This document shows positions 7,559 to 21,831 of a stretch of 35,901 nucleotides of DNA, one piece after another (within the stretch, counting starts at the first letter, position 1; every line of letters starts with the position of its first letter). A program made the position numbers and the translations under genes. Origin of the DNA: an uncultured Prevotellaceae bacterium. Lineage in GTDB: Bacteria > Bacteroidota > Bacteroidia > Bacteroidales > Muribaculaceae. Under the pieces are notes generated by a model. It was not told the origin of the DNA, ran no database searches, and saw only the letters and a list, made by a program, of their open reading frames with translations. The stretch spans positions 1-35,901 of the forward strand of contig ONIY01000017.1 of assembly GCA_900318065.1 (NCBI GenBank). Direction: 5' to 3'.

Positions 7559-10204
7559 ATGCGATATATTAAGGTACTCCTACTCTTCCTCTCGATATAT
7601 GTGACGGGCTTTGCTTGGGCACAGGCTCAAGAATCCTACACGGTGAACGACACAATCTTCAACCCACGACTGACGTTCAACGGCGTGCCCACCAAGTATG
7701 AGATTGCAGGCATCAAAGTGAGCGGTGTCGATAACTATGAGGACTATATCATCATAGGTTACTCAGGGCTGTCGATAGGTCAGCGTGTAGACATTCCTGG
7801 AAGCGACTTGCGCAACGCCGCCAAGCGCTTCTGGCGCCAAGGCCTTTTCTCTAAGGTGCAAATCAAGGTGGAGAAGATCTACGGCGACAAGGCATGGCTC
7901 GAGTTTGTGCTCCGCCAGCAGCCACGCATCTCCAAGATCAACTACTTGGGCATGAAGAAGGGAGAGCAAAAGGATATCGTGGAGCGACTGGGCAACCTCG
8001 TGGGTAACCAAATCACTCCTAATATCGCAAGCCGCATCGAGCAGATTATCGAGAAATACTACGCCAGCAAGGGATTTGAGAAGGCCACTTGCAAAGTGAA
8101 TCAGCAAGAAGACCTGAGCAAGCAGAACGAGGTGATTGTCGACGTGGTTGTCAACAAAAACGAGAAAATCAAGGTCCACAAGATATATATCGAGGGCAAC
8201 GAGGTGCTGAGCGACCGCGCCATCAAGCAAGCCATGAAGAAGACCAACGAAGGTGGCCTCTTGAATGTGCTCAAATGGTTCAGCCAGAAGAAATTTGTGC
8301 GCTCCGACTACGAGGACGATAAGCAGCGCATCATCGACAAGTATAACGAGAAAGGCTACCGTGATGCCGTGATTGTGTGGGACAGCGTAGCCACCTATAA
8401 CGAGAAGGCCGTCGACGTCTACCTCAAGGTTGACGAGGGAAAGAAATACTATATCTCTAATGTGTCGTGGGTGGGCAACACCGTCTATCCCACTGCCGTG
8501 CTCAACGAAATCCTGGGCATTGAGAAAGGCGACGTCTATAACCAGAAACTACTGAACAAGCGCACCACCGAGGACGATGATGCCGTTTCTAACCTGTACA
8601 TGAACAACGGTTATCTGTTCTTCCAGCTCGTCCCCACCGAGACACGCATCGAGGGCGACTCCATCGACATTGAGATGCGACTCTACGAGGGCAAGCAGGC
8701 ACGCATCAACAGGGTGGTCATCAACGGTAACGACCGCCTCTATGAGAAGGTAGTGCGCCGCGAGCTGCGCGTGCGCCCTGGCGACCTGTTCAGCAAGGAA
8801 GACCTCGTGCGCTCGGCACGTGAGATTGCCCAGACGGGACACTTCGACCCCGAGAAGATGGACATTCGCCCCGAGCCCAACGAGGAGGACGGCACCGTTG
8901 ACATCATCCTGAACCTGGAGTCGAAGGCCAACGACCAGATCGAGGTGTCGGCAGGTTGGGGACAGACGGGTATCATTGGTAAAGTGACCCTCAAGTTCAC
9001 CAATTTCTCCATCAAGAACCTGTTCCACCCGTCGTCCTACAAGGGCATCATCCCGCAAGGCGATGGACAGACGTTCTCGATCAGCGCCCAGACCAATGCC
9101 AAGTACTATCAGGCCTACAGCATCTCGTTTGTCGACCCCTGGTTTGGCGGCAAGCGTCCTAATACCCTGTCGGTGTCGGCATTCTACAGCCGCACCACTG
9201 GTATCAACTCGTCTTATTACACCAGCCAGTACCAGAACTACTATCTCAACACCCTGTACAACGGCATGTATAACGGTTACAACGGCTACAACAACTACTA
9301 CGGCAACAACTACTATGAGAACGCCTACGACCCAGACAAATATCTGCAGATGGCAGGTGTGACAATAGGTTTTGGTAAGCGCCTCAAGTGGCCCGACGAC
9401 TACTTCACCCTCATGGCCGACCTGAGCTACCAGTGGTACAGCCTCAAGAACTGGGAATACCTCTACTACATGAAGAATGGTGTGAGCAACTCTATCGTGC
9501 TGGGCTTGACACTTGCCCGCAACAGTATCGACAACCCGCTCTACACACGTCGCGGTAGCTCGTTCACCCTGTCGTTCCACACCACACCTCCTGCCAGCCT
9601 CTTTGGCAAGAAGAACTGGAAGGCATTGAGCGAGTCTAACACCGACGCTGCCAAGAAAGAACTCTATCACTGGATTGAGTACTGGAAACTCAAGTTCCAG
9701 GCCAAGACCTATACCCCACTCACCGACCCCAATGGCCGCTGGACCCTCGTGCTCATGTCACGTGCCGACATTGGCCTGTTGGGCAGCTGGAACCGCCACA
9801 TCAAGTCGCCATTTGAGACCTTCTATGTGGGTGGTGACGGCATGAGTGGTAGCGCCACCTATGCCACCGAGGCGATTGCCCTGCGTGGTTATGAGAACGG
9901 TGCCTTCACTCCCTACGGACAAGAGAGCTATGCCTACGCCCGCTATGTGATGGAGCTCCACTTCCCACTGATGCTCTCCACCAGTGCCACCATCTATCCA
10001 TTGCTCTTTGTCGAGGCCGGTAATGCCTGGACAAGCGTGAAGAAGTTCAACCCATTTGACTTGAAGCGCTCGGCTGGTGTGGGTGTTCGCATCTACCTGC
10101 CAATGATTGGCATGATGGGTATCGACTGGGGTTATGGCTTCGACAGAGTGGATGGCAACAAGGGTGGCAGCAACTTCCACTTCGTCCTGGGACAGGAGTT
10201 CTAA
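7559..10204 (+). CDS. bamA: BamA outer-membrane assembly factor
   Basis: 881 aa. Signal peptide 1-24, POTRA repeats to about residue 440 (for example KVHKIYIEGNEVLSDRAIKQ and ARINRVVINGNDRLYEKVVR), then a C-terminal 16-strand Omp85 barrel from about 470 ending in Phe. The LRGYENG segment corresponds to the conserved (V/L)RG(F/Y) motif on barrel loop L6. BamA folds and inserts outer-membrane proteins. A Tyr/Asn/Gly-rich insert (about residues 560-590, DNA 9240-9330) is probably an extracellular loop. It is followed by skp genes, whose products deliver clients to this machine. Confidence 0.95.
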   Translation: MRYIKVLLLFLSIYVTGFAWAQAQESYTVNDTIFNPRLTFNGVPTKYEIAGIKVSGVDNYEDYIIIGYSGLSIGQRVDIPGSDLRNAAKRFWRQGLFSKVQIKVEKIYGDKAWLEFVLRQQPRISKINYLGMKKGEQKDIVERLGNLVGNQITPNIASRIEQIIEKYYASKGFEKATCKVNQQEDLSKQNEVIVDVVVNKNEKIKVHKIYIEGNEVLSDRAIKQAMKKTNEGGLLNVLKWFSQKKFVRSDYEDDKQRIIDKYNEKGYRDAVIVWDSVATYNEKAVDVYLKVDEGKKYYISNVSWVGNTVYPTAVLNEILGIEKGDVYNQKLLNKRTTEDDDAVSNLYMNNGYLFFQLVPTETRIEGDSIDIEMRLYEGKQARINRVVINGNDRLYEKVVRRELRVRPGDLFSKEDLVRSAREIAQTGHFDPEKMDIRPEPNEEDGTVDIILNLESKANDQIEVSAGWGQTGIIGKVTLKFTNFSIKNLFHPSSYKGIIPQGDGQTFSISAQTNAKYYQAYSISFVDPWFGGKRPNTLSVSAFYSRTTGINSSYYTSQYQNYYLNTLYNGMYNGYNGYNNYYGNNYYENAYDPDKYLQMAGVTIGFGKRLKWPDDYFTLMADLSYQWYSLKNWEYLYYMKNGVSNSIVLGLTLARNSIDNPLYTRRGSSFTLSFHTTPPASLFGKKNWKALSESNTDAAKKELYHWIEYWKLKFQAKTYTPLTDPNGRWTLVLMSRADIGLLGSWNRHIKSPFETFYVGGDGMSGSATYATEAIALRGYENGAFTPYGQESYAYARYVMELHFPLMLSTSATIYPLLFVEAGNAWTSVKKFNPFDLKRSAGVGVRIYLPMIGMMGIDWGYGFDRVDGNKGGSNFHFVLGQEF

Positions 10205-10297
10205 GCACACATTGCTAGCCTAGATTAAACTTTCAACACAATTGATAGTCAAAAACAAGCACAATATTAACAATTTTAGATACACATAAAGAACAAA

Positions 10298-10813
10298 ATG
10301 AAAAAAATCGCATTATTAATTGTGGCTATGGTGGCTTGCATGTCATCGGCCAATGCTCAAAAGTTTGCGCTCGTAGACATGGAGTATATCCTCAAGAATA
10401 TCCCTGCCTATGAGATGGCCAACGAGCAGCTCAACCAGGTGTCGCAACGCTGGCAACGCGAGGTGGAAGACCTCAAGAAGGCTGCCGACGTGATGTACAA
10501 GAACTATCAAAGCGACAAGGTGTTCCTTACCGACGACCAAATCAAGAAAAAAGAGGAAGAGATTGTTGCCAAGGAGAAAGAGGCTTCACAACTCAACTAC
10601 AAGTACTTTGGTCCTCAGGGAGAGCTCTTCAAGAAGCGTCAGTCGCTCATGAAGCCCATTCAAGACGATGTGTATAACGCAGTAAAGAAGGTGAGCGAGG
10701 AACGTGGACTCCAGGTAATCTTCGACCGCGCCTCCTCACAGAGCATTGTCTTTGCCTCACCCAACATCGACATCAGCAACCAGGTGCTCGAGAAACTGGG
10801 ATACTCTAAGTAG
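10298..10813 (+). CDS. skp: Skp/OmpH periplasmic chaperone 1
   Basis: 171 aa. Signal peptide ending ANA|Q, then the OmpH start KFALVDMEYILKNIPAYEMA, a long charged coiled coil (about 45-115) and a short C-terminal beta region (GLQVIFDRASSQSIVFASPN). Skp-like proteins hold unfolded outer-membrane proteins in a trimeric cavity on the way to BamA, encoded 93 bp upstream. First of three non-identical paralogues in a row. Confidence 0.9.
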   Translation: MKKIALLIVAMVACMSSANAQKFALVDMEYILKNIPAYEMANEQLNQVSQRWQREVEDLKKAADVMYKNYQSDKVFLTDDQIKKKEEEIVAKEKEASQLNYKYFGPQGELFKKRQSLMKPIQDDVYNAVKKVSEERGLQVIFDRASSQSIVFASPNIDISNQVLEKLGYSK

Positions 10814-10990
10814 TTTTCAGTAGTCAGTTTTCAGTAGTCAGTTGTCAGTAGTCAGTTGTCAGTAGTCAGTTGTCAGTCTTTGGCGCTATTCTACTACTAA
10901 ACTATTCAACTGCTTTACTACTCTACTACTTTACTACTCTACTGCTTTACTACTCTACTACTTTACTATTCAACTACTCAACTATTTCAC
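10814..10990 (+). repeat. Degenerate tandem repeat tract after skp1
   Basis: Begins at the base after the skp stop codon. Part one (10814-10877) repeats TCAGTAGTCAGTT(T/G) about every 10 nt. Part two (10891-10990) is a pyrimidine-rich 7-8 nt repeat of the type CTACT(A/G)CTTTA. No coding potential. The first part reappears, oriented the same way relative to its upstream gene, at 33775-33835. Confidence 0.85.
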
Positions 10991-11038
10991 TTTTTCATCT
11001 GTAAACTTTAATTTTAATAAATAACCAATTAATTGATT

Positions 11039-11542
11039 ATGTTTAAGAAAATCCTACTCGCAGTCCTCGTGGCTGCCCCTATGTGCCTGAGCGCACAGAC
11101 TCTTAAGTTTGGTACAGTTAACCCAACCGAAATCTTCAATGTTATGCCCGATGTTGCTACTGCCAACAATACGCTGAAGACATTGCAAGAGAAATATGAG
11201 GCTCAAGCCAAGCCATTACAGGAAGAGTTGACCAAGAAGATTAATGAATACCAAGAGCTGGAGAAGAACAAAGCTGCACAAGCTACGCTCGATGCTAAGC
11301 AAAAGGAGTTTGAAGACCTGAAGACTCGCTATGACAACTTCATGCAGACTGCACAGAAGGACATGTCGCAGCAGCAAGAGACCCTTCTCGCTCCCATCCA
11401 GCAAAAGCTGATGAATGCCATTCAGGCAGTGGGTGCCGAGGGCGGTTATGCTGGCATTCTTGACAGCGCTACTCTACTCTACAAGGGCAACAACATCGAG
11501 GATGTTTCGTCCAAGGTGAAAGCTAAATTAGGTATTAAGTAA
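11039..11542 (+). CDS. Skp/OmpH periplasmic chaperone 2
   Basis: 167 aa from the ATG at 11039; a TTG two codons earlier is unlikely. Signal peptide ends LSAQ, then KFGTVNPTEIFNVMPDVATA (OmpH core start), a Lys/Glu/Gln coiled coil (about 45-120) and GGYAGILDSATLLYKGN as the closing beta part. Same role as the preceding gene is expected. A strong terminator follows, so this gene probably ends the bamA operon. Confidence 0.88.
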   Translation: MFKKILLAVLVAAPMCLSAQTLKFGTVNPTEIFNVMPDVATANNTLKTLQEKYEAQAKPLQEELTKKINEYQELEKNKAAQATLDAKQKEFEDLKTRYDNFMQTAQKDMSQQQETLLAPIQQKLMNAIQAVGAEGGYAGILDSATLLYKGNNIEDVSSKVKAKLGIK

Positions 11543-11564
11543 GTAATCGTTACATATTTTTGTG

Positions 11565-11609
11565 TTTCGGTCTGAGAAGGGCTTTCCCGTCTCAGACCGA
11601 AGTTTTTTT
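11565..11609 (+). terminator. Strong intrinsic terminator after skp2
   Basis: A perfect 12-bp stem, TTCGGTCTGAGA (11566-11577) with TCTCAGACCGAA (11590-11601), plus an inner GGG/CCC pairing, is followed by seven T. It closes the plus-strand envelope operon. Confidence 0.93.
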
Positions 11610-11621
11610 CTCTCGATAATG

Positions 11622-11653
11622 TGTGCTGTTGTGACAAAAAAGTGCTACCTTTG
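11622..11653 (+). promoter_or_regulatory. Promoter of skp3
   Basis: TACCTTTG at 11646-11653 matches the -7 consensus; TGTG at 11622-11625 is a one-mismatch -33 box at 20-nt spacing. It sits between the terminator and the ATG at 11685, so the third skp gene has its own promoter. Confidence 0.65.
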
Positions 11654-11684
11654 CAGTATTACAACACACTAAAACTATTGAACG

Positions 11685-12197
11685 ATGAAAATAAACCGAC
11701 TCTTAATGCTTGTGCTGGCTATTGTGCCACTGGCAATGGCAGCACAGGTGAAGATTGCAACAGTAGATGTGCAGGCAATTTTCAATGCCATGCCCGAGAC
11801 TAAGACGGCTGCCGAAACGCTCGAGAACGCCTCTAAGCAGTACAAGGCCGAATATGAGATGATGCAAGCGGAGTTCAACAGCAAGTATGAGGCCTATCAG
11901 GCAATGACAGCCAGCAAAGATGTGCCGCAAACCATCCGCGACCGCCGCATCCGCGAGATACAGGACGGAGACCGCGAGATTGAGGCATTCCTCGAGAAGA
12001 GCAAGAGCTTGCTCAACGAGCAGAAGCACGCCCTCGAGGCTCCCATCTATGACAAGATCCAGCAAGCCATCAAGCAAGTGGGCGACGCCGGCGGCTACAC
12101 CTATATAATAGATGTGTCGAAGACACCAGTAGTCTACTCCGGCCCCACCGCCATCGACCTCACCACAACAGTGAAGAAAACACTGGGAATAGAGTAA
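11685..12197 (+). CDS. Skp/OmpH periplasmic chaperone 3
   Basis: 170 aa. Signal peptide (LAMAAQ), OmpH core KIATVDVQAIFNAMPETKTA, coiled coil about 45-120 and GGYTYIIDVSKTPVVYSGP near the end. It is closer to the second paralogue (shared I/VFN-MP start and GGY-ILD/IID end) than to the first. It has a separate promoter, so the paralogues may be differentially expressed. The gene is followed immediately by a three-part tandem repeat. Confidence 0.88.
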   Translation: MKINRLLMLVLAIVPLAMAAQVKIATVDVQAIFNAMPETKTAAETLENASKQYKAEYEMMQAEFNSKYEAYQAMTASKDVPQTIRDRRIREIQDGDREIEAFLEKSKSLLNEQKHALEAPIYDKIQQAIKQVGDAGGYTYIIDVSKTPVVYSGPTAIDLTTTVKKTLGIE

Positions 12198-12377
12198 AAA
12201 GGACGAAGGACGAAGGACGAAGGACAAAGGACGAAGGACAAAGAGCTCGACTGCTCGACTGCTCGACTGCTCGACCGCTCGACCGCTCGACCGCTCGACC
12301 GCTCGTTCTCCCATCCCCGATTCCCGACCTCCCATCCCCGATCTCCCATCTCCCATCCCCGATCCCCCATCCCCCAA
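12198..12377 (+). repeat. Three-part microsatellite between skp3 and vsr
   Basis: Directly after the stop codon: 12198-12245 is a 7-nt repeat GGACGAA/GGACAAA; 12246-12305 an 8-nt repeat CTCGACTG turning into CTCGACCG; 12306-12377 a C-rich repeat of TCCCATC/CCCGATC type. It ends 11 nt before the vsr ATG. All frames read as artefactual repeats, so I treat it as noncoding. Confidence 0.92.
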
Positions 12378-12388
12378 AAAAGACAACC

Positions 12389-12904
12389 ATGGCCGACAAG
12401 ATGACTGCCGAGCAGCGACATCGCTGCATGAGCAACATCAAGAGCAAGAACACCAAGCCCGAGATGATTGTTCGCCGGTGGCTGTGGCACGAAGGCTATC
12501 GCTATCGCCTAAACGTGAAACAGCTGCCTGGTCGCCCCGATATTGTCTTGCCCAAGTACAGCACAGTAATCTTTGTGAATGGCTGCTTCTGGCACGCTCA
12601 CGAGGGCTGCGACAAGTACCGCCTGCCATCGACCAATGTCGACTTCTGGGCTCAGAAGTTCCAGCGCAACAAGAGCCGCGACGAGCGCAACTACAGGCTG
12701 CTGCACAAGATGGGATGGTATGTGCTTGTGGTGTGGGAATGCCAGCTCGAGAAATCGCGCCGCCACGACACTCTCCTGGCCCTCTCAAGGCGGTTGAGCC
12801 AGATATACCTCGACACGCACAACGCCCGGCTCTACACGCCCTCGCTCGATGAAGAGGCCACAATACAACAAGCCGCCGAGCCACTGGTGCCCTACGGCGA
12901 GTAA
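12389..12904 (+). CDS. vsr: Very short patch repair endonuclease Vsr
   Basis: 171 aa, usual length about 140-160. Vsr nicks 5' of the T in T:G mismatches that arise by deamination of 5-methylcytosine. Motifs are complete: MSNIKSKNTKPE N-terminus, LPGRPDIVLP with catalytic Asp51, FVNGCFWHAH with Cys66, His69 and His71, then Cys74 and VVWECQ with Cys118 as the other zinc ligand. Vsr is normally paired with a C5-cytosine methyltransferase, but none is in this window. The upstream side is a microsatellite and the downstream gene is convergent, consistent with an inserted solitary gene. Confidence 0.93.
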   Translation: MADKMTAEQRHRCMSNIKSKNTKPEMIVRRWLWHEGYRYRLNVKQLPGRPDIVLPKYSTVIFVNGCFWHAHEGCDKYRLPSTNVDFWAQKFQRNKSRDERNYRLLHKMGWYVLVVWECQLEKSRRHDTLLALSRRLSQIYLDTHNARLYTPSLDEEATIQQAAEPLVPYGE

Positions 12905-12941: not shown

Positions 12942-14327
12942 CTAATATTGCTGGCTGGGATTGACCACGTAGCTTTTTCTTTTCACAGGCACGGGAACCT
13001 GAGTGGTGGTGCCTTTCTCTTGTCGTGCTCGTGCTGCAGGCACCTGGCGATAATCGCTGCCAGCATGGCCCGAGTAGTTGGCTGGCGGGTAGCTTGCTGG
13101 TGTGTAGCTGGCAGGACGTGGCGAGTCGTTATAGGCGATGCTCACGCTTCGGCGTCTCGACACTGGTGCTTCATCGATGGGTTCGATTACAGCAGGCGCA
13201 AGATGCGGCTGGTAGTCTTCCTTGCTCTCACCAGGCTGCACCTCGTCGCGCACGGCATAGAGCTCGCGGTCATGACTGGCGATGCGGTCGCGGTTGCGCC
13301 TGTAGCTGTAGACATACTGCGCTGGCAGTGTCAGGGCATAAGGATGAATATTGCCCGGTATCACATCGTTGCGGTACTGAGGGTTGAGGAAACGGAGCTC
13401 GTCGATGGGGATATTTAGCACTTGAGCAACCTGGTTCAGGTTCACTCGCTTGTCCACCATAACGCTGTCAACGTCGAGGCGCCTGCGTGCTGGTGCCGAC
13501 CCTATGTTGTGCTCACGGTGGAAGGCCATCACATAGTTGGTGGCGATAAAGGCAGGCACATAGCCGCGAGTGTTGCGCGGCAGGAAGTTATAGATGTCCC
13601 AGAAGCCGGGATGCGACACGCCATTAACCTCGGCCCTTCTCACTGCCTTGTTCACATTGCTTGGCTCGCAGTAGTAGGCTGCGATAGCAAGCATCCAGTC
13701 GCCATAGGTGTCGTGGAGTTTCTTCAGATAGGTAGCAGCGGCATAGCTTGCCTTCACGGGGTCGCGGCGCTCGTCGACGAGAGAGTTCACCTCAAGGCCA
13801 TGCCCCTTGGCAGTGAGCACCATGAAGTGCCACAAGCCACCGGCGCCAGCAGGCGACACGGCATTAGCATCGAGTGCCGACCCCGCCAGTGGAACACACC
13901 TCAAGGCCCTGGGCAACCGCCTGCTGCCTATCGCCCTGTCAAAATAGGGCATATAGAAGGTGCACATTCCCAGCATTTGAGCCACGAGAGTGCGCTTGCG
14001 CTGCAGGTAATACTCAATGTACTTCTTCACGATGGGGTTGAAAGTCATCTCAACCCCCATCTGTCGCGACAGGCTGTTGAGACGGTCGCGGTACACATTG
14101 TCGGTCGCGAGCACATTGCTGTGGTTATTGTCAACAATGGCAAAGTTCTGGAGATACCAGTTGGCAGCCATCGCCCTGCTGCCAGTCTCGAGACTGGCGG
14201 GATAGACGATGTTGTTGTCATTGATAGATTCCTTAATCGACAACGAGTGGCGGGCATTTTGCGCTATTCCACAAAATGCCGAACTCACTATCATTGCCGT
14301 TATTAAAAGAATCTTATTGGTTCTCAT
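12942..14327 (-). CDS. MltD-like protein lacking the catalytic Glu, no LysM
   Basis: 461 aa, third of three tandem MltD paralogues. Signal peptide (CGIAQ), then the MltD N-terminal region and an SLT (GH23-like) domain at about 110-270. Where the active paralogue has PIIESAL, this one reads PLAGSAL (Gly149, codon GGG), so the catalytic acid is gone. Motif II is GLWHFMVLTAK instead of GLWQFMPSTAK and motif III is AYYCEPSNVNKA instead of AYNCGPGNVNKA. The C-terminal third is Pro/Arg-rich without LysM. The ATG overlaps the upstream stop by one base (TAATG), implying translational coupling. Probably a non-enzymatic peptidoglycan-binding or scaffold protein. Confidence 0.85.
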   Translation of the reverse strand: MRTNKILLITAMIVSSAFCGIAQNARHSLSIKESINDNNIVYPASLETGSRAMAANWYLQNFAIVDNNHSNVLATDNVYRDRLNSLSRQMGVEMTFNPIVKKYIEYYLQRKRTLVAQMLGMCTFYMPYFDRAIGSRRLPRALRCVPLAGSALDANAVSPAGAGGLWHFMVLTAKGHGLEVNSLVDERRDPVKASYAAATYLKKLHDTYGDWMLAIAAYYCEPSNVNKAVRRAEVNGVSHPGFWDIYNFLPRNTRGYVPAFIATNYVMAFHREHNIGSAPARRRLDVDSVMVDKRVNLNQVAQVLNIPIDELRFLNPQYRNDVIPGNIHPYALTLPAQYVYSYRRNRDRIASHDRELYAVRDEVQPGESKEDYQPHLAPAVIEPIDEAPVSRRRSVSIAYNDSPRPASYTPASYPPANYSGHAGSDYRQVPAARARQEKGTTTQVPVPVKRKSYVVNPSQQY

Positions 14328-17110
14328 TATCTTCTCTTCTTGCCGTTGCTGGGTTGCACTGTGCTGTTGTTATTATTCTTTACCACCTGCTTTGTATTTT
14401 TACTTGACTTGTGCTGGTGGTGCTGCTCGTCATTGTCATGCTGCTGGGCATGGGCGTTCTTGCCACCCTTGGGGATGTTGATCTTTTGACCAATCACGAT
14501 GTTGTCGCCCTTGATATTGTTGGCCTTGCGAATCGCCTCGGGAGTGGTGCCATACTGCTGTGCGAGCTTGGTGAGGTTTTGACCTTCCTTCACCTCATGC
14601 ACGATGGGCTTGGCAGCCTCACGGCGACGGCGTTCCTCTTCTTCGCGCTTCTTCATAGCCTCGGCAGCCTCTTTTTTCTTCTTCTCGGCTAACTCGGCTT
14701 CATGCTTCTTCTTTGCGTCGGCGTCGCGTTTCTTCTTGGCGGCAGCCTTCTCGTCGGCATTGCGCTTCTTGTCGTTGTCGTTATCGGCAACATTATGTTG
14801 CTTAGCTGCTTGCTGAGGTTTTCCAGCGGTGCCAGGCACCTTGAGGTTTTGCCCTATCTTGATGTTATCGTCGCTCAGGTTGTTGAGTTGCATGAGCACC
14901 TCGGGGGTAGTGCCGTATTGCTGCGCCAGCTTGGTGAGGTTTTGTCCCTCGGTCACCTTGTGGAATGTGGTTGACTGCACCTCGTTCCTCTTCTTGTTGC
15001 CGGTGTTGCTGGCAACATTGCCCTGCTGCTTGCCTTGTTGCTGAGCAACTTTCGAGCCATTAGGAATCTTGATGGTTTGGCCTATCTGGATGTTGTCGTT
15101 GGTCAGGTTGTTGGCTTGCATGATAGCCTCGGGAGTGGTGCCATACTGCTGCGCCAGCTTGGTGAGATTGTCGCCCACGGCAACCTTGTGGTTGGTGGCG
15201 CGGTAGGGAACCTCGGTCTTCTTGCCGGCATTGCTGGGAGTGTTGCCCTGCTTGGGCTGCTGCTGGCTAGCATATTGCTGTCCGTTGCGAGGAATCTTGA
15301 GCACCTGCCCAATCTTGATGTTGGGGTCGGTAATGTTGCTGGCTTGCATGATGGCCTCGGGGGTGGTGCCATACTGCTGCGCCAGCTTGGTGAGGTTCTG
15401 TCCCTCGGTCACCTTGTGGTTGATGGGCTTCTCGGCCTCACGACGGCGACGCTCCTCTTCCTCTCGTTTCTTCTTGGCCTCGGCATCTCTTCGCTTAGCC
15501 TCGGCAATCTCAGCATCGCGCTTGCGCTGAGCAGCGAGTTCGGCTTCGCGTTTCTTCTTAGCTTCGGCGTCGCGTTTCTTCTTAGCCTCGGCGTCACGTT
15601 TCTTGCGAGCTGCCTCTTCCTGCTGGCGCTTCAACTCCTGTTGATAAACCTCCTCGCTATAATCATCGTCGTCGTCATCCACATAGCGGTTGCTGTTGCT
15701 CGAGGAACTCTTGTTGTCATTGTAGGCATAGTTGCCACTGCTGTTACTTGAAGAAGAAGAATAGGAAGAGCCGCTGTTGACAGTGCTGTTCACCAGGTTG
15801 CTTCCCTTGCGCTTGATCTTGAGCACATCGCCATCTTCCACCTCATCTTCATAGCGAATGTTGTTAGACGCCAGCAGTTCGTTAAGGCTCATGCCATAAC
15901 GGCTGGCGATGTCCTGCAAGTCCTCGCCCTCAATCACGGTGTGGTAGATGGTGCCGTCGTTAGGAATCTCATCTTTCTCCTCACCCACGATGTTCTTCAC
16001 ATCGCCAGGCTGCACCTCGTCGCGACGGGCAAACTGGTTGCGGTGATACTTCAAGATTTTCTCCCTTGCCATCGAGTAGCTCTCGATTTGCTGCTTGGGC
16101 AGCACAAGATTATAGGGCTTGATGTTGCCAGGAATCACATCGGTGCGATACTGTGGATTTAGCAGTCTTATCTCCTCGAGAGGGATGTTGAGCACCTGCG
16201 AGATTTGGTGGAAGCTCACGCGGTCGTTCACCTTCACGCTATCGAGCACCAGTGGCTTGCGGGCAAGGGTTGGGTTGATGCCGTGAGCCTGGTAATAGTT
16301 CATGGCATAGCATGTGGCGATAAAGGCGGGCACATAGCCTCGCGTGGTCTTGGGCAGGAAGTTATAGATGCTCCAGAAGTCGGGCTTTTCGATGCCCTGC
16401 TTCTGAGCACGCCTGATGGCTTTGTTCACATTGCCCATGCCGTTATAGGAAGCGGCAATGGCAAGCAGCCAGTCGTTGTAGCGGTCATAGAGTCGTTTCA
16501 AGAATATGGCAGCGCTGTAGCTCGACTTCACTGGGTCGCGGCGCTCGTCAACGAGAGTATTCACCTCCAGTCCATGTCCCTTGGCAGTGATCACCATGAG
16601 TTGCCACAGTCCACTGGCGCCCACCAGCGATGATGCGCTGGGGTTCAACTCCGAGCCTGTCACGGGCAAGTATTTAATAGCCTCGATGTGCTTGGGCGCG
16701 ACACCATTCTCGCTGAGAGCCTTCTCAAAGATGGGCATGTAGAAGTGGTTCAATCCCAGCATTTGAGGCACAAGGTTGCGGTTCTTGTTGCTGAAATATT
16801 GCTCTATGTAGTTTTTCACTAGTGGGTTGAAAGGCATGTCGATGCCCGTGTGCTTCGACAGTTCCTCAAGTCTCTTTCTCAGCTCGCTGTCGGTGGCATC
16901 ACGGTAGTCCTGGCCCTCGGTGTCGAGAATAGCGAAATTGTTGAGATACCAGTTATCGTCGATCTTCACGTTGTTAGGATCGGAGCTAAATGGAAACACT
17001 ATCGACCGGTCGTTGATGGTATACTTGAGCGACTTGTTGTCGGTAGCATTCGCCGTCAAGACCGATGACAGAAGGATGAGTGTAGATGAAAACAGTAAAT
17101 GATATTTCAT
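14327..17110 (-). CDS. MltD-like protein lacking the catalytic Glu, five LysM
   Basis: 927 aa, second paralogue. Signal peptide, MltD N-terminal region and SLT-like domain (about 115-275), one LysM near 390-440, a Ser/Asn linker, a Lys/Arg/Ala/Glu helical repeat (AEAKKKRDAE type), then four more LysM modules each with LTKLAQQYGTTPE. The catalytic position reads PVTGSEL (Gly152, codon GGC) instead of PIIESAL. Motif II is GLWQLMVITAK and motif III ASYNGMGNVNKA. The frame is intact over 2.8 kb, so this is not ordinary decay. LysM binds GlcNAc in glycan strands; with five copies the protein should bind the wall tightly even without cleavage. Confidence 0.88.
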   Translation of the reverse strand: MKYHLLFSSTLILLSSVLTANATDNKSLKYTINDRSIVFPFSSDPNNVKIDDNWYLNNFAILDTEGQDYRDATDSELRKRLEELSKHTGIDMPFNPLVKNYIEQYFSNKNRNLVPQMLGLNHFYMPIFEKALSENGVAPKHIEAIKYLPVTGSELNPSASSLVGASGLWQLMVITAKGHGLEVNTLVDERRDPVKSSYSAAIFLKRLYDRYNDWLLAIAASYNGMGNVNKAIRRAQKQGIEKPDFWSIYNFLPKTTRGYVPAFIATCYAMNYYQAHGINPTLARKPLVLDSVKVNDRVSFHQISQVLNIPLEEIRLLNPQYRTDVIPGNIKPYNLVLPKQQIESYSMAREKILKYHRNQFARRDEVQPGDVKNIVGEEKDEIPNDGTIYHTVIEGEDLQDIASRYGMSLNELLASNNIRYEDEVEDGDVLKIKRKGSNLVNSTVNSGSSYSSSSSNSSGNYAYNDNKSSSSNSNRYVDDDDDDYSEEVYQQELKRQQEEAARKKRDAEAKKKRDAEAKKKREAELAAQRKRDAEIAEAKRRDAEAKKKREEEERRRREAEKPINHKVTEGQNLTKLAQQYGTTPEAIMQASNITDPNIKIGQVLKIPRNGQQYASQQQPKQGNTPSNAGKKTEVPYRATNHKVAVGDNLTKLAQQYGTTPEAIMQANNLTNDNIQIGQTIKIPNGSKVAQQQGKQQGNVASNTGNKKRNEVQSTTFHKVTEGQNLTKLAQQYGTTPEVLMQLNNLSDDNIKIGQNLKVPGTAGKPQQAAKQHNVADNDNDKKRNADEKAAAKKKRDADAKKKHEAELAEKKKKEAAEAMKKREEEERRRREAAKPIVHEVKEGQNLTKLAQQYGTTPEAIRKANNIKGDNIVIGQKINIPKGGKNAHAQQHDNDEQHHQHKSSKNTKQVVKNNNNSTVQPSNGKKRR

Positions 17111-17149
17111 GACTCTATAGTGATTTCTTGTTGTGAGTACAGTGGTGTA

Positions 17150-19177
17150 TTATTTCTTCCTGGGAATCTGGAGAGTTTGTCCTTCCCTGATGTTGTCGCC
17201 CTTGATGTTGTTGGCCTTGCGAATCGCCTCGGGGGTGGTGCCATATTGCTGCGCGAGCTTGGTGAGGTTTTGTCCCGACTTCACCTTGTGGCTGATGGGT
17301 TTCTCGGCCTCGCGACGGCGACGTTCCTCTTCCTCACGCTTCTTCTTGGCCTCGGCCTCGTGTTTTTTCTTCTCGGCAAGCTCAGCCTCTTTTTTCTTCT
17401 TAGCGGCTATCTCGGCCTCACGCTTTTTCTTAGCTTCGGCCTCGCGTTTCTTCTTGGCTTCGGCCTCACGTTTCTTCTTAAGCTCGGCGTCTTGTTTCTT
17501 CTTAGCCTCGGCTTCGCGTTTCTTGAGGGCAGCCTCTTCCTGCTGGCGCTTCAGCTCCTGCTGGTAGACTTCCTCGCTATATTCGCTCTCGTCGTCATCG
17601 AAGTTGTCGTAACGGCTGTCGCGGCTAGTGTTGTATTGAGATTCCTGGTTGTAGGAGTCGCTCTTCTTTCTTCTCTCGGGCACAGGGCGGTTGTCGCTGC
17701 CACTGTGACCGTTGCTATTGTAGTCGTTGTCGTTATAATTGTTGTTGCCATAGTAACCGCCACTGTTGTTTTTCTTAGTGGGGGTGCTGTTGTAAAGCTT
17801 GCTCAGCTCGTCGTCGGCGTCGCTTGAACTGTTGTACTTGTCGTCACCGTCTTCGCCAGAGTTGATGTACTTCTCGTCGTCATAATCCTGCTTATTTCCA
17901 GTGGAGGCAATGTTGCCTTGCTGGCTCTTGTTGCGCCTGCTGCTGGTGGTCATCACCTTCAGGATTGTGCCTGGCTCCAATTGATCATATTCCGACTCCA
18001 GCTTGTTGAGTGTCAACAGGTCGTCGATTTTCATGCTATACATGTCGGCAATGGCAAATATGTCCTCTCCCTCTTTAACCTCATGATCCTGGAGGAAGTC
18101 CTCGCCGCCACCTTCGTTGCTGCGACGGTAGTTGTAGATCTTGTCCTCTTCCTCGATGAAGCTCATAATCTGCTGCGAGGGAAGGGCGAGTGTGTAGGGG
18201 CGCACATTTCCAGGAATCACGTCGCCGCGATACTGTGGATTCAAGACCCTGATCTCATCCATTGGGATTTTCAGCACATTAGAGATTTGGCTGAACGACA
18301 CACGCTTGTTAACCTGCACGGTATCGATGATGAGAGGGCGGTCGGGATACTTGGGGTTGATGCCATGCTCGCGGTAGTAGGTCATCACATAGTTGGCAGC
18401 GATAAACGCTGGCACATAGCCACGAGTTTCCTTGGGCAGGTAGTTGTAGATTTCCCAGAAGTCGGGATGCTCGGTGCCCACTCGCTTCATCGCTTTGTTG
18501 ACATTGCCAGGGCCACAGTTGTAGGCAGCAATGGCAAGCGACCAGTCGCCATAGGTGTCATAGAGCTTCTGGAAGAACACAGCAGCCTTCTCGCTCGAGA
18601 CGTAGGGGTCGCGGCGTGCATCGACCTGGCTGGTCACCTCCATGCCTATACCCTTGGCTGTCGAGGGCATGAACTGCCACAGGCCGCCGGCACCGGCAGG
18701 CGACACGGCATTGGGGTTGAGTGCGCTCTCAATAATGGGGATATACTTGAGCTCAAGTGGCATGTTGTGGCGCTCAAGGGCAGCCTCAAAGATGGGCATA
18801 TAGTAGGAACTCATACCCACTAGTTGCGCCACCAGAGTGCGTCCTTTCACCACATATCTCTCGATATAGCTTTTCACGATTTGGTTGAATGGCATCTCGA
18901 TTGAAGTGGGCAGTTTTTGCAGTCTCTCCTTGTACACCCTGTCGCTCACGGTGCCGGTGTTGGTGCTATAGCTGCTGTTGAAATCAAAATCCCTGAGATA
19001 CCAGCTCTCCATCATCTCCTTGGTATCGCTCTCAAAGCTCGAGGGGTAATGGATAGCATTGTCGGTAATCGACTCCTTGATTGAGAGCACGTTCTTGCGC
19101 TTGGTGTCGGGTGCCGCCCAAGCAGTCGATAATGTTATTAACGATAGTGTTGTTAGAATTAAAATTCGATATTTCAT
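17150..19177 (-). CDS. mltD: Membrane-bound lytic transglycosylase MltD, two LysM
   Basis: 675 aa, the intact paralogue. Signal peptide (WAA), SLT domain about 110-275 with PIIESALNPNAVSPAGAGGL (catalytic Glu150-Ser151), GLWQFMPSTAKG and AYNCGPGNVNKA, all canonical. LysM 1 lies near 375-425, then a Ser/Asn/Asp linker, a long Lys/Glu/Ala charged helix (about 545-620) and a C-terminal LysM. It cleaves between MurNAc and GlcNAc to give 1,6-anhydro ends during wall growth. It is encoded 27 bp after DUF5683 in the parB operon, as in other Bacteroidales. Confidence 0.93.
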   Translation of the reverse strand: MKYRILILTTLSLITLSTAWAAPDTKRKNVLSIKESITDNAIHYPSSFESDTKEMMESWYLRDFDFNSSYSTNTGTVSDRVYKERLQKLPTSIEMPFNQIVKSYIERYVVKGRTLVAQLVGMSSYYMPIFEAALERHNMPLELKYIPIIESALNPNAVSPAGAGGLWQFMPSTAKGIGMEVTSQVDARRDPYVSSEKAAVFFQKLYDTYGDWSLAIAAYNCGPGNVNKAMKRVGTEHPDFWEIYNYLPKETRGYVPAFIAANYVMTYYREHGINPKYPDRPLIIDTVQVNKRVSFSQISNVLKIPMDEIRVLNPQYRGDVIPGNVRPYTLALPSQQIMSFIEEEDKIYNYRRSNEGGGEDFLQDHEVKEGEDIFAIADMYSMKIDDLLTLNKLESEYDQLEPGTILKVMTTSSRRNKSQQGNIASTGNKQDYDDEKYINSGEDGDDKYNSSSDADDELSKLYNSTPTKKNNSGGYYGNNNYNDNDYNSNGHSGSDNRPVPERRKKSDSYNQESQYNTSRDSRYDNFDDDESEYSEEVYQQELKRQQEEAALKKREAEAKKKQDAELKKKREAEAKKKREAEAKKKREAEIAAKKKKEAELAEKKKHEAEAKKKREEEERRRREAEKPISHKVKSGQNLTKLAQQYGTTPEAIRKANNIKGDNIREGQTLQIPRKK

Positions 19178-19204: not shown

Positions 19205-19882
19205 TCAAAAGTTCACGTGGCATCCCAGCCCTATCGATGGCAGCCGCGAGTGCTGGTTGTCGATGACAGCAGGTCCCCAGTCCATCGAGAGGTCGGGGCT
19301 CACGTCGAAATGCATCATCGAGGCGTCAACATAGGCATCGACCACGTTGAGCAAGTAGACTGCCGCAATGCCAATGATGCAGATGTCGCGATAGCGCCGG
19401 TAGTAGTCCTTGCGGCTCTTGAGGGTGCTCGTGAGCCAGGTCTTGTCAAGGTCGCTCTCCTGGACCGTGGGTGGATAGAAGTCCATGTAGCTGCGGGTGT
19501 TGGGGTCGTTGTCGGTGATGTCACGATAGGCCTTGCTGTAGTCGTTGAGCATGCGATTGTTCCACGATGTGCCATAGGTGAGTCCCACAAAAGCGCCAAT
19601 CACGATGGGCAGTTTCCAGTAGCGACGGTTGTAGATTTGTCCTGCTCCAGGGCATAACGCCGAGAGCCACATTGCGCGCATGGGGTTAGGGTTGAACTTC
19701 ACCGCCAGGTCGCTCGCCTGCGGGCTCTTTAGGGTTGTGCCGGTGAGCAGTGCAGTGCTGTCGCTCAGGATGATGGTGTCGCCAGAGGCAATGTCACGGT
19801 CGAGCAGCACATTGCCCTGTGCCAGTGAAACAAGCGCAAGCATTGCGCCCAGCATTAGTGCCAGAGCGCGTTTCATTGCCAT
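19205..19882 (-). CDS. DUF5683 membrane protein
   Basis: About 225 aa from ATG 19882; ATGs at 19876 and 19945 are alternatives and all leave a signal peptide (LALMLGAMLALVSLAQ). The core has FNPNPMRAMWLSALCPGAGQIYNRRYWKLPIV, long in DUF5683 proteins, a helix near residue 85-105, a second near 160-180 and VDAYVDASMMHFD. The PGAGQ-YNR-YWK signature is typical of small multi-helix Bacteroidetes membrane proteins in the parAB-mltD neighbourhood. Biochemical role unknown. Confidence 0.8.
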   Translation of the reverse strand: MAMKRALALMLGAMLALVSLAQGNVLLDRDIASGDTIILSDSTALLTGTTLKSPQASDLAVKFNPNPMRAMWLSALCPGAGQIYNRRYWKLPIVIGAFVGLTYGTSWNNRMLNDYSKAYRDITDNDPNTRSYMDFYPPTVQESDLDKTWLTSTLKSRKDYYRRYRDICIIGIAAVYLLNVVDAYVDASMMHFDVSPDLSMDWGPAVIDNQHSRLPSIGLGCHVNF

Positions 19883-19964
19883 ATGTGATGTGTTGCAGCC
19901 TGTATTCACGATGGTTTTGGACTTTGGGCACTGGCGCATTGCCATTGCCGCAAAGCACTATATA

Positions 19965-20843
19965 TTATTTTAAACGATCAAAAATGCTAATTATTCTGTC
20001 AAGGTCGTCGTCGTTGTTGAAGGCAAATGTTATTTTTCCTTTACCCGACGCGTCGCAGGCGAACTTCACTGGCACGCCAAAGGCCTTCGACAGGTGATTG
20101 GTGAGAATGCTAAAATCCTCGTTACCATGGCGTTTTGAGGACTTTTTGCCTTCGTCTTTCCCAGTCTTGGCACTCTCTTGATACTGCTTTGCAAGCTGCT
20201 CTACCTGCCTTACCGATAAACCTTTTTTAAGTGTCTCGTTATATAATTTTAACTGCAAAGCCGGGTCGGTGATGGGCAGCAGTGCACGGGCGTGACCCAT
20301 GTCGAGCTTTTTGTCGCGCAGGCCGCGCTGAATCTCGGCGGGCAACTTGAGAAGGCGCAGGAAGTTGGCTATTGTAGCACGATTCTTGCCAATGCGCTCG
20401 CTCAGGCGCTCTTGAGTGAGGTGATACTGGTCTATGAGCTTGCTCATGGTGAGCGCAATCTCAATGGCATTAAGGTCCTCGCGCTGGATGTTCTCGATGA
20501 GTGCCATCTCGGTGAGCTCGGTGTCGTTGGCCTCACGAATGTAGGCTGGCACCGTTTTGAGCCCTGCCATCTTGGCGGCGCGGTAACGTCGCTCTCCCGA
20601 GATAATCTGGTAGTTATCATCGTCAATCTTGCGCAGCGTGAGAGGCTGGATGATTCCCAGCTCACGAATCGATGCCGCAAGTTCCTCAAGAGCAGCGTTG
20701 TCAAAGGTTGTGCGAGGCTGGTCGGGGTTGGGCGTTATCTGCTTGATGTCGATGTCATTGATACCCTGGGTGGTGGCATCGCTCTGGATGTCGTCCATCG
20801 ATATCAACGAGTCAAGTCCGCGACCTAAAGCGTTTCTCTTCAT
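19965..20843 (-). CDS. parB: Chromosome partitioning protein ParB
   Basis: 292 aa. N-terminal ParA-contact segment (LGRGLDSLI), ParB/Srx CTPase domain with GERRYRAA (83-90) and ENIQREDLN (117-125), a helix-turn-helix region (LSERIGKNRATIANFLRLLKL begins near 145) and a C-terminal dimerisation part. ParB loads at parS and slides as a CTP-bound clamp, guiding origin segregation with ParA. I searched the window for the usual parS palindrome centred on CACGTG and found no convincing copy. It has its own promoter, so it need not depend on parA transcription. Confidence 0.95.
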   Translation of the reverse strand: MKRNALGRGLDSLISMDDIQSDATTQGINDIDIKQITPNPDQPRTTFDNAALEELAASIRELGIIQPLTLRKIDDDNYQIISGERRYRAAKMAGLKTVPAYIREANDTELTEMALIENIQREDLNAIEIALTMSKLIDQYHLTQERLSERIGKNRATIANFLRLLKLPAEIQRGLRDKKLDMGHARALLPITDPALQLKLYNETLKKGLSVRQVEQLAKQYQESAKTGKDEGKKSSKRHGNEDFSILTNHLSKAFGVPVKFACDASGKGKITFAFNNDDDLDRIISIFDRLK

Positions 20844-21057: not shown

Positions 21058-21831
21058 TTACTGCTTCTCGTTTTCCTTCTCGATGAGTTCCTGAGCGAGC
21101 TGGAGGTGGCTGATGGCGCCTCGACTCTGGGGGTCGTAGAGCAATGCTGGCAGGCCGTGGCTGGGCGCCTCGCTCAAGCGGGTGTTGCGGGGAATGACGG
21201 TGGTGAACACAATGTCGCCAAAGTGGCTCTTGAGTTCCTCGTAGATTTGGTTGGCAAGTCTCAGTCTCGCGTCATACATAGTGAGCAGGAATCCCTCGAT
21301 GTGAAGGCCTGTGTTGAGTTTTGCCTTGATGATGCGCACCGTGTTGAGCAACTTGCTGATACCTTCGAGCGCGAAATACTCGGCTTGAACCGGGATTATC
21401 ACACTATTGGCAGCCGTGAGGGCATTGACGGTGATGAGCCCCAGCGACGGGCTACAGTCGATGAGGATGTAGTCATATTCCTTGTCCAGACTGGCAAGCA
21501 TAGTGCGCAGCACCTTCTCGCGACTGGGCTTGTTGATGAGTTCCAGCTCGGCACCCACGAGGTCGATTCTTGAGCCCAGCACGTCGAGGTTCTCCACCTG
21601 CGAATGCAGCACTGCACTCTTGATGGGATAGTCGTCGACAAGGCACTCGTAGACCGACGATTGCAGCCCTTTTGGGTCGAATCCCAGTCCCGAGGTGGCA
21701 TTGGCCTGCGGGTCGGCGTCAATGAGTAATACCTTCTTTTTTAGTGTTGCCAGCGAAGCGGCAAGGTTGATGGCGGTAGTGGTCTTGCCCACACCACCCT
21801 TTTGATTTGCAATAGCTATTATCTTTGTCAT
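21058..21831 (-). CDS. parA: Chromosome partitioning ATPase ParA
   Basis: 257 aa, standard for small chromosomal ParA/Soj. Deviant Walker A KGGVGKTTT (11-19, with the signature Lys11), LLIDADPQAN (Walker A', 35-44), Walker B YILIDCSPSLG and the VIPRNTRLSEAPSHGLP region usual for Soj. It binds nonspecific DNA as an ATP dimer and moves ParB-parS complexes. No N-terminal helix-turn-helix, so it is a chromosomal rather than plasmid type Ia protein. Encoded upstream of parB on the same strand. Confidence 0.95.
   Translation of the reverse strand: MTKIIAIANQKGGVGKTTTAINLAASLATLKKKVLLIDADPQANATSGLGFDPKGLQSSVYECLVDDYPIKSAVLHSQVENLDVLGSRIDLVGAELELINKPSREKVLRTMLASLDKEYDYILIDCSPSLGLITVNALTAANSVIIPVQAEYFALEGISKLLNTVRIIKAKLNTGLHIEGFLLTMYDARLRLANQIYEELKSHFGDIVFTTVIPRNTRLSEAPSHGLPALLYDPQSRGAISHLQLAQELIEKENEKQ

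Follow-up and report, generated by a model that had tools for sequence, protein, structure and literature searches.

Two tandem MltD paralogues without the catalytic glutamate in a Muribaculaceae genome: probable selected pseudoenzymes beside an active MltD

The window, a stretch of 35,901 nucleotides from an uncultured Prevotellaceae bacterium of the Muribaculaceae (GenBank assembly GCA_900318065.1, contig ONIY01000017.1, positions 1 to 35,901), carries three MltD-like genes, all with intact frames, in a head-to-tail array on the minus strand that runs parB, DUF5683 gene, mltD, P2, P3. The first, mltD (17150..19177), encodes a GH23 lytic transglycosylase of 675 aa with a Pfam SLT domain (105 bits), two LysM stretches and the catalytic Glu150, whose GAG codon lies at 18728..18730. 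P2 (14327..17110) encodes a 927 aa paralogue with an SLT domain at 16388..16729 (72.3 bits in Pfam) and five LysM stretches, in which Gly152 (GGC, 16655..16657) replaces the catalytic Glu; P3 (12942..14327) encodes a second paralogue of 461 aa with an SLT domain at 13632..13913 (68.3 bits), no Pfam LysM, a tail predicted to be disordered, and Gly149 (GGG, 13881..13883) at the same site. We call copies without the Glu dead, although their loss of activity is a reading of their residues. By open reading frame coordinates, 27 bp separate the DUF5683 gene from mltD; mltD and P2 are set 39 bp apart (17111..17149), and P2 shares a single base with P3 (TAATG). A common transcript is therefore likely. 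A sequence-only reading of this DNA had described three tandem MltD paralogues, two without the catalytic Glu in intact frames, one with five LysM modules and one with none, and the reading frames, codon readout and Pfam calls bear out each of these points, including the residue numbering and the codons.

To the residues at and around the active site we applied a comparison of 122 distinct domains, drawn from 179 matches after those shorter than 200 residues and repeat cores were dropped. The Glu is present in 115 of these domains, all of which also have the YN of motif III; the remaining seven are P2 and P3, with Gly, plus one tandem copy from each of five further species, with Cys (TGC or TGT, within VACSAL). 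A later reading found Glu in all 65 further domains (49 from genomes of the genus and 16 second copies from the order). Motif III, AAYNCGPGN in MltD, reads AASYNGMGN in P2, AAYYCEPSN in P3 and FN, FH or HT in the orthologues, and is altered in all seven dead copies; in three of them Tyr is changed to Phe with Asn retained, and FN also occurs in three Glu-bearing domains elsewhere in the order. Motif II is retained as GLWQ in P2 and reads GLWH in P3. RGYVPAF is present in MltD, P2 and P3, and across the seven dead copies it is kept in all and GLWQ in six. Three near-invariant residues, Glu142, Glu150 and Glu250, are missing from all seven, and Tyr219 from six. A set of 66 columns was taken at a conservation of 97% or more in the 115 active domains; an active domain lacks an average of 0.29 of them, with a maximum of 3, and the dead copies retain 53 to 59. 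Because the same Glu losses are common to the seven copies, they fit one ancestral loss; a path from Glu through Gly to Cys is allowed by the codons and may have been the one taken.

The genus sampled here is probably Candidatus Sodaliphilus (Muribaculaceae), since named loci fall among its sequences in the tree. Dead copies occur in six of the 101 genomes covered (the window genome, G000, and G076, G079, G083, G006 and G062), each in tandem after an active mltD. Cys takes the place of the Glu in five species, and Gly does so in the window genome alone, so that the expected conservation of Gly across species did not hold. Most often there is a single dead copy; of the six genomes, only that of the window was found to have the third gene. 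Ninety-three of the 101 genomes gave a reading of the Glu site (44 in the first comparison and 49 in the later reading), and all 93 have a Glu copy, the six having dead copies besides; the gene is cut off at the site in G012 and G038, and G020, G027, G028, G049, G093 and G094 gave no long match. In a search of the family (397 genomes, up to 4 candidates scored per genome), more than one match at E 1e-100 was found only in genomes of the window genus. One genome of the genus (G026) has a second MltD-like gene of 954 codons on a contig apart from its main locus (L038:3629-6490, on contig C11), with the Glu kept (IESGL) and a long N-terminal extension that does not align with the other domains.

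Phylogenetic analysis places the seven dead copies in one clade, with a Shimodaira–Hasegawa-like approximate likelihood-ratio test (SH-aLRT) value of 99 in the first tree and bootstrap/SH-aLRT values of 99/99 in a more careful tree, where a separate clade (100/100) unites the partner MltDs from these six species. One duplication and one loss fit these trees best. P3 is the first branch within the dead clade (97/94 in the careful tree), and in the codon models this order outperforms a sister grouping of P2 and P3 by about 10 log units. Because it branches first, P3 may be an old copy that was lost in the other five species, although its branch is long.

Selection was measured as the ratio of nonsynonymous to synonymous substitution rates (omega) on the SLT-containing N-terminal domain of 301 codons. 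For the closest pair, G006 and G062, omega is 0.032 for the dead copies (synonymous distance, dS, 1.54) vs 0.020 for the active ones (dS 1.07). A branch codon model with P3 basal gives omega values of 0.066 for the active branches, 0.064 for the other dead branches, 0.20 for P2 and 0.12 for P3, and omega = 1 is rejected for each dead group (twice the log-likelihood difference, 2ΔlnL, of 747 for the other dead branches, 9.7 for P2 and 42.7 for P3). On the stem of the dead clade omega lies at the upper bound and exceeds the active rate (2ΔlnL 16.3), an excess over 1 being unsupported (2ΔlnL 1.2). The alternative topology, with P2 and P3 as sisters, gives a similar picture, with omega at 0.14 for both. 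Fast change on the stem was followed by purifying selection, which is well supported, and the proposed check, a dN/dS below 1 in the dead copies, came out in favor of constraint.

AlphaFold models were consistent with retention of the domain. The N-terminal 400 residues of P2 have a mean predicted local distance difference test (pLDDT) score of 86.7; full-length P3 averages 80.7, with block means of 87 to 98 for residues ~70 to 360 and values below 50 in the tail from residue 375. The best solved-structure matches to both models in Foldseek are to Pseudomonas aeruginosa MltD, and the SLT fold is predicted to be intact in P2 and P3. Since the alignments behind the models consist mostly of active relatives, the models speak for a plausible fold but not for binding by the groove. 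A Pfam scan found SLT and LysM-type families in P2, SLT in P3, and no LytM/M23 domain in either. MltD has two Pfam LysM stretches in all six species, and the dead copy has three in five species, five in P2 and none in P3; the usual dead copy (P2 type) therefore has more LysM modules than MltD. Residues 286 to 335 of the P3 model form a strand-helix-helix-strand element whose identity as LysM is not confirmed, Pfam calling no LysM there. Within 14327-19177, the DNA of mltD and P2 is 73–78% alike in the linker and LysM pieces and 68–71% in the N-terminal pieces, and P2 holds several near-copies, which suggests repeat exchange between these neighbors.

Dead copies also occur elsewhere in the order. 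Of 393 genomes searched, 55 with at least two matches at E 1e-60 were picked by eye and their second copies read in all 55, a design that would miss more diverged dead copies and single dead copies in other genomes. The 95 order domains read (79 + 16) comprise 89 with Glu and six without, the latter from families f11 (G540, G637, G423), f35 (G447) and f100 (G695, G611). In f11 and f35 the dead gene lies in tandem 3' of the active mltD (four genomes), with ParB nearby in all four and a DUF5683 match in two (L246, L247); in both f100 genomes it lies away from the active mltD. For G540/G637, omega is 0.025 in the dead copies (dS 2.31) vs 0.051 in their partners (dS 1.22), the dead copies being as constrained as the partners. 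The six cluster in one tree (SH-aLRT 99), and in the careful tree only the f11 trio and the f100 pair are well supported, the rest of the six being unresolved. A single origin of all 13 dead copies was rejected by the approximately unbiased test (p-AU 2.1e-06), with the group chosen in the knowledge of an initial tree and with long branches in play; by this rejection, dead copies likely arose at least twice in the order. A class-wide profile search with a profile of this other group (395 genomes) returned no further dead copies among 30 best-match loci, all of which have Glu. In the same class-wide search, A5 profile matches in family f59 (G471, G576, G668, G736, G796, G1165) cross in-frame stops, perhaps within the LysM part, which may there have split off or degraded.

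The six dead genes of this other group share a gene neighborhood in three families. Two GDSL-type genes come directly after each of them, with an MBOAT gene next at five loci (L244:8636-15001, L245:1229-7561, L246:545-6842, L248:886-6465 and L250:1916-7543); at the sixth, that of G447 (L247:2922-7312), no MBOAT gene was found in the 2.9 kb of sequence available beyond the GDSL pair. These calls were made with Pfam for L244 and L248 and with tblastn for the remaining loci. MBOAT-SGNH pairs are described as acylating envelope polymers, with PatA/PatB targeting peptidoglycan (PMC12148441). The dead transglycosylase gene looks like the head of an envelope acetylation cassette, which may act on peptidoglycan. 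The MBOAT genes of the window genome lie on other contigs, not beside the dead copies. A long MBOAT homologue (at least 62% identity) is found in 17 of the 101 genus genomes, in four of the six with dead copies (G000, G076, G083 and G062; not G079 or G006) vs 13 of the 95 others, counts that include kinship among the genomes; within the genus, MBOAT genes and dead copies co-occur only loosely.

Upstream of mltD lie the DUF5683 gene (19205..19945), a homologue of which precedes mltD in several other loci, parB (19965..20843) and a gene that we take to be parA-like (21058..21831), all on the minus strand; the latter two also have homologues in other loci. In the other five species the dead gene lies directly 3' of the active mltD, preceded by parB-like and DUF5683-like genes, and beyond it lie Vsr-like and, in most cases, OmpH-like genes, the labels being assigned by eye on the basis of the initial residues. 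Converging on P3 in the window are a large outer-membrane gene (BamA-like, by eye), three OmpH/Skp-like genes and Vsr (7559-12904), of which the third OmpH/Skp-like gene matches Pfam OmpH and was not seen in the open reading frame lists of L040 and L041. The sequence-only reading had relA following mltD in related genomes, with the paralogues here in its place. Among five other loci (L124, L154, L128, L110 and L095), a Rel homologue lies directly 3' of mltD only in L154 (Dysgonomonas), which upholds the remark for that locus; in the window genome relA does not adjoin mltD, and two RelA_SpoT genes sit on contigs C49 and C66.

From these comparisons, the proposal that P2 and P3 are pseudoenzymes kept by selection is well supported: five orthologues lack the Glu, the clade points to a single origin, and omega values fall far short of 1. 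A regulatory role, also suggested in the sequence-only reading, is plausible. Restoration of Glu and neutral decay, looked for in the six genomes (one per species), were not found. We propose that three Glu residues, the general acid/base and two more that are near-invariant, were lost once from a duplicate of mltD, and that a short period of fast change was then followed by purifying selection. The dead SLT groove and the LysM array would hold glycan strands, so that the protein, produced alongside MltD, would most likely serve as a peptidoglycan clamp that does not cleave and that would place, restrain or shield the active enzyme. To the reading that the dead copies are non-cleaving, glycan-binding partners that place or restrain MltD we assign a probability of about one half. 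The acidic residues are lost, GLWQ and RGY are kept, LysM modules are more numerous, the gene stands in tandem with mltD and such copies have at least two likely origins, a pattern that suits a protein with a continued hold on glycan and no cutting. More tentatively, the dead lytic transglycosylases of the Bacteroidales could form a distinct class of glycan-strand readers, with at least two origins from mltD, that in one line place or restrain MltD and in the other guide the GDSL-GDSL-MBOAT acetylation cassette to strands that MltD would cut.

Several points weigh against the partner reading. Dead copies occur in just six of the 101 genus genomes, and the function is therefore dispensable for most of the genus; P3 is without Pfam LysM, so the clamp idea suits it less well. 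Both the binding and the activity state of the dead copies are things we infer. The synonymous distance is saturated in most pairs, so that a firm pairwise omega comes only from G006/G062 and, with less confidence at dS 2.31, from G540/G637 in the other group, and the branch codon model is our own and uses a single rate across sites. The 66 columns were picked on active domains, which alone makes other rows look more divergent, and P2 has a Glu at +2 (TGSEL), where a shifted catalytic residue is possible for P2 alone.

That Glu also speaks for the idea that the domain acts on peptidoglycan through another residue or reaction, as do the Cys common to five orthologues, the high stem omega, which is of the kind seen after a change of function, and the migrated residues noted in a review of pseudoenzymes (PMC10211241). 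No replacement is common to the seven copies, however, the site holding Gly or Cys and the +2 Glu occurring in P2 only, and three Glu are gone from the same domain, together with the motif III Tyr in six of seven; we consider such new catalysis improbable. A possible but unlikely alternative is that the dead copy acts through direct contact with MltD, turning the enzyme on or off, with glycan binding secondary. The tandem genes and the same fold would suit such an allosteric partner, and precedents exist in DipM, a degenerate LytM protein that binds and stimulates the transglycosylase SdpA (PMC10336132), in the dedicated protein control of MltF by IltA/LiiA (PMC10746161) and in the dead paralogue that activates trypanosomatid deoxyhypusine synthase (PMC3663545). 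The gain of LysM modules, on the other hand, favors wall binding, and in G695 and G611 the active mltD and the dead copy are found at separate places.

Two further explanations would deprive the dead SLT domain of a role. It could be a passenger in P2, with selection on the LysM part alone, which would agree with the raised LysM number; but the low omega was measured on the SLT-containing N-terminal domain itself and P3 keeps its SLT domain without Pfam LysM, and we give this reading little credence. Neutral decay of tandem duplicates would account for branches longer than those of active MltD and for the patchy presence in the genus, yet frames of 461 to 927 codons are intact at large or saturated synonymous distance, omega is well below 1 and the non-Glu state is retained in six species. 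The pairwise and branch codon models reject decay for the P2 type and for P3, and we hold it to be very improbable, and already contradicted for the P2 type.

Among known systems, P. aeruginosa MltD (PDB 8RHE, 8RHF and 8RHI) resembles the window copies in predicted fold, SLT domain and RGY, and P2 also in LysM and GLWQ, whereas the copies are altered at the catalytic Glu, the Glu142/Glu250 equivalents and motif III and differ in LysM number. Degenerate LytM proteins, which include EnvC and NlpD as further regulators of cell-wall hydrolases, offer the closest known mode of action, although P2 and P3 are not members of that family: those regulators likewise retain a dead hydrolase domain for the sake of cell-wall enzymes, and DipM acts on a lytic transglycosylase, but theirs is a LytM metallopeptidase fold rather than SLT, and in the window the dead copy is itself directly paralogous to its probable partner. 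PrgK of pCF10 links a degenerate hydrolase domain of proposed regulatory role to an SLT-type domain, but there the degenerate domain is LytM and lies within the same protein as the active one. The IltA/LiiA-MltF system is alike in its dedicated protein control of a lytic transglycosylase and unlike in that IltA is described as a Sel1-like repeat protein with no transglycosylase kinship. PatA/PatB-type MBOAT-SGNH cassettes resemble only the other dead group, where GDSL and MBOAT genes directly follow the dead MltD gene, and not the window, where none adjoins; we know of no dead SLT gene in cassettes of this type. In the literature searched, mostly titles and abstract openings with subscription papers largely outside, no dead SLT paralogue is described.

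Dead cell-wall hydrolases are already known, and what appears new is the retention of a dead SLT paralogue next to its active counterpart. A dead copy beside a live enzyme that has likely evolved at least two times suits a direct test of the pair, and annotation by SLT or MltD family can give the wrong name to a protein that is probably unable to cut. Should the other group indeed supply an acetylation cassette, dead transglycosylases would tie the cutting of a glycan to the blocking of that same glycan.

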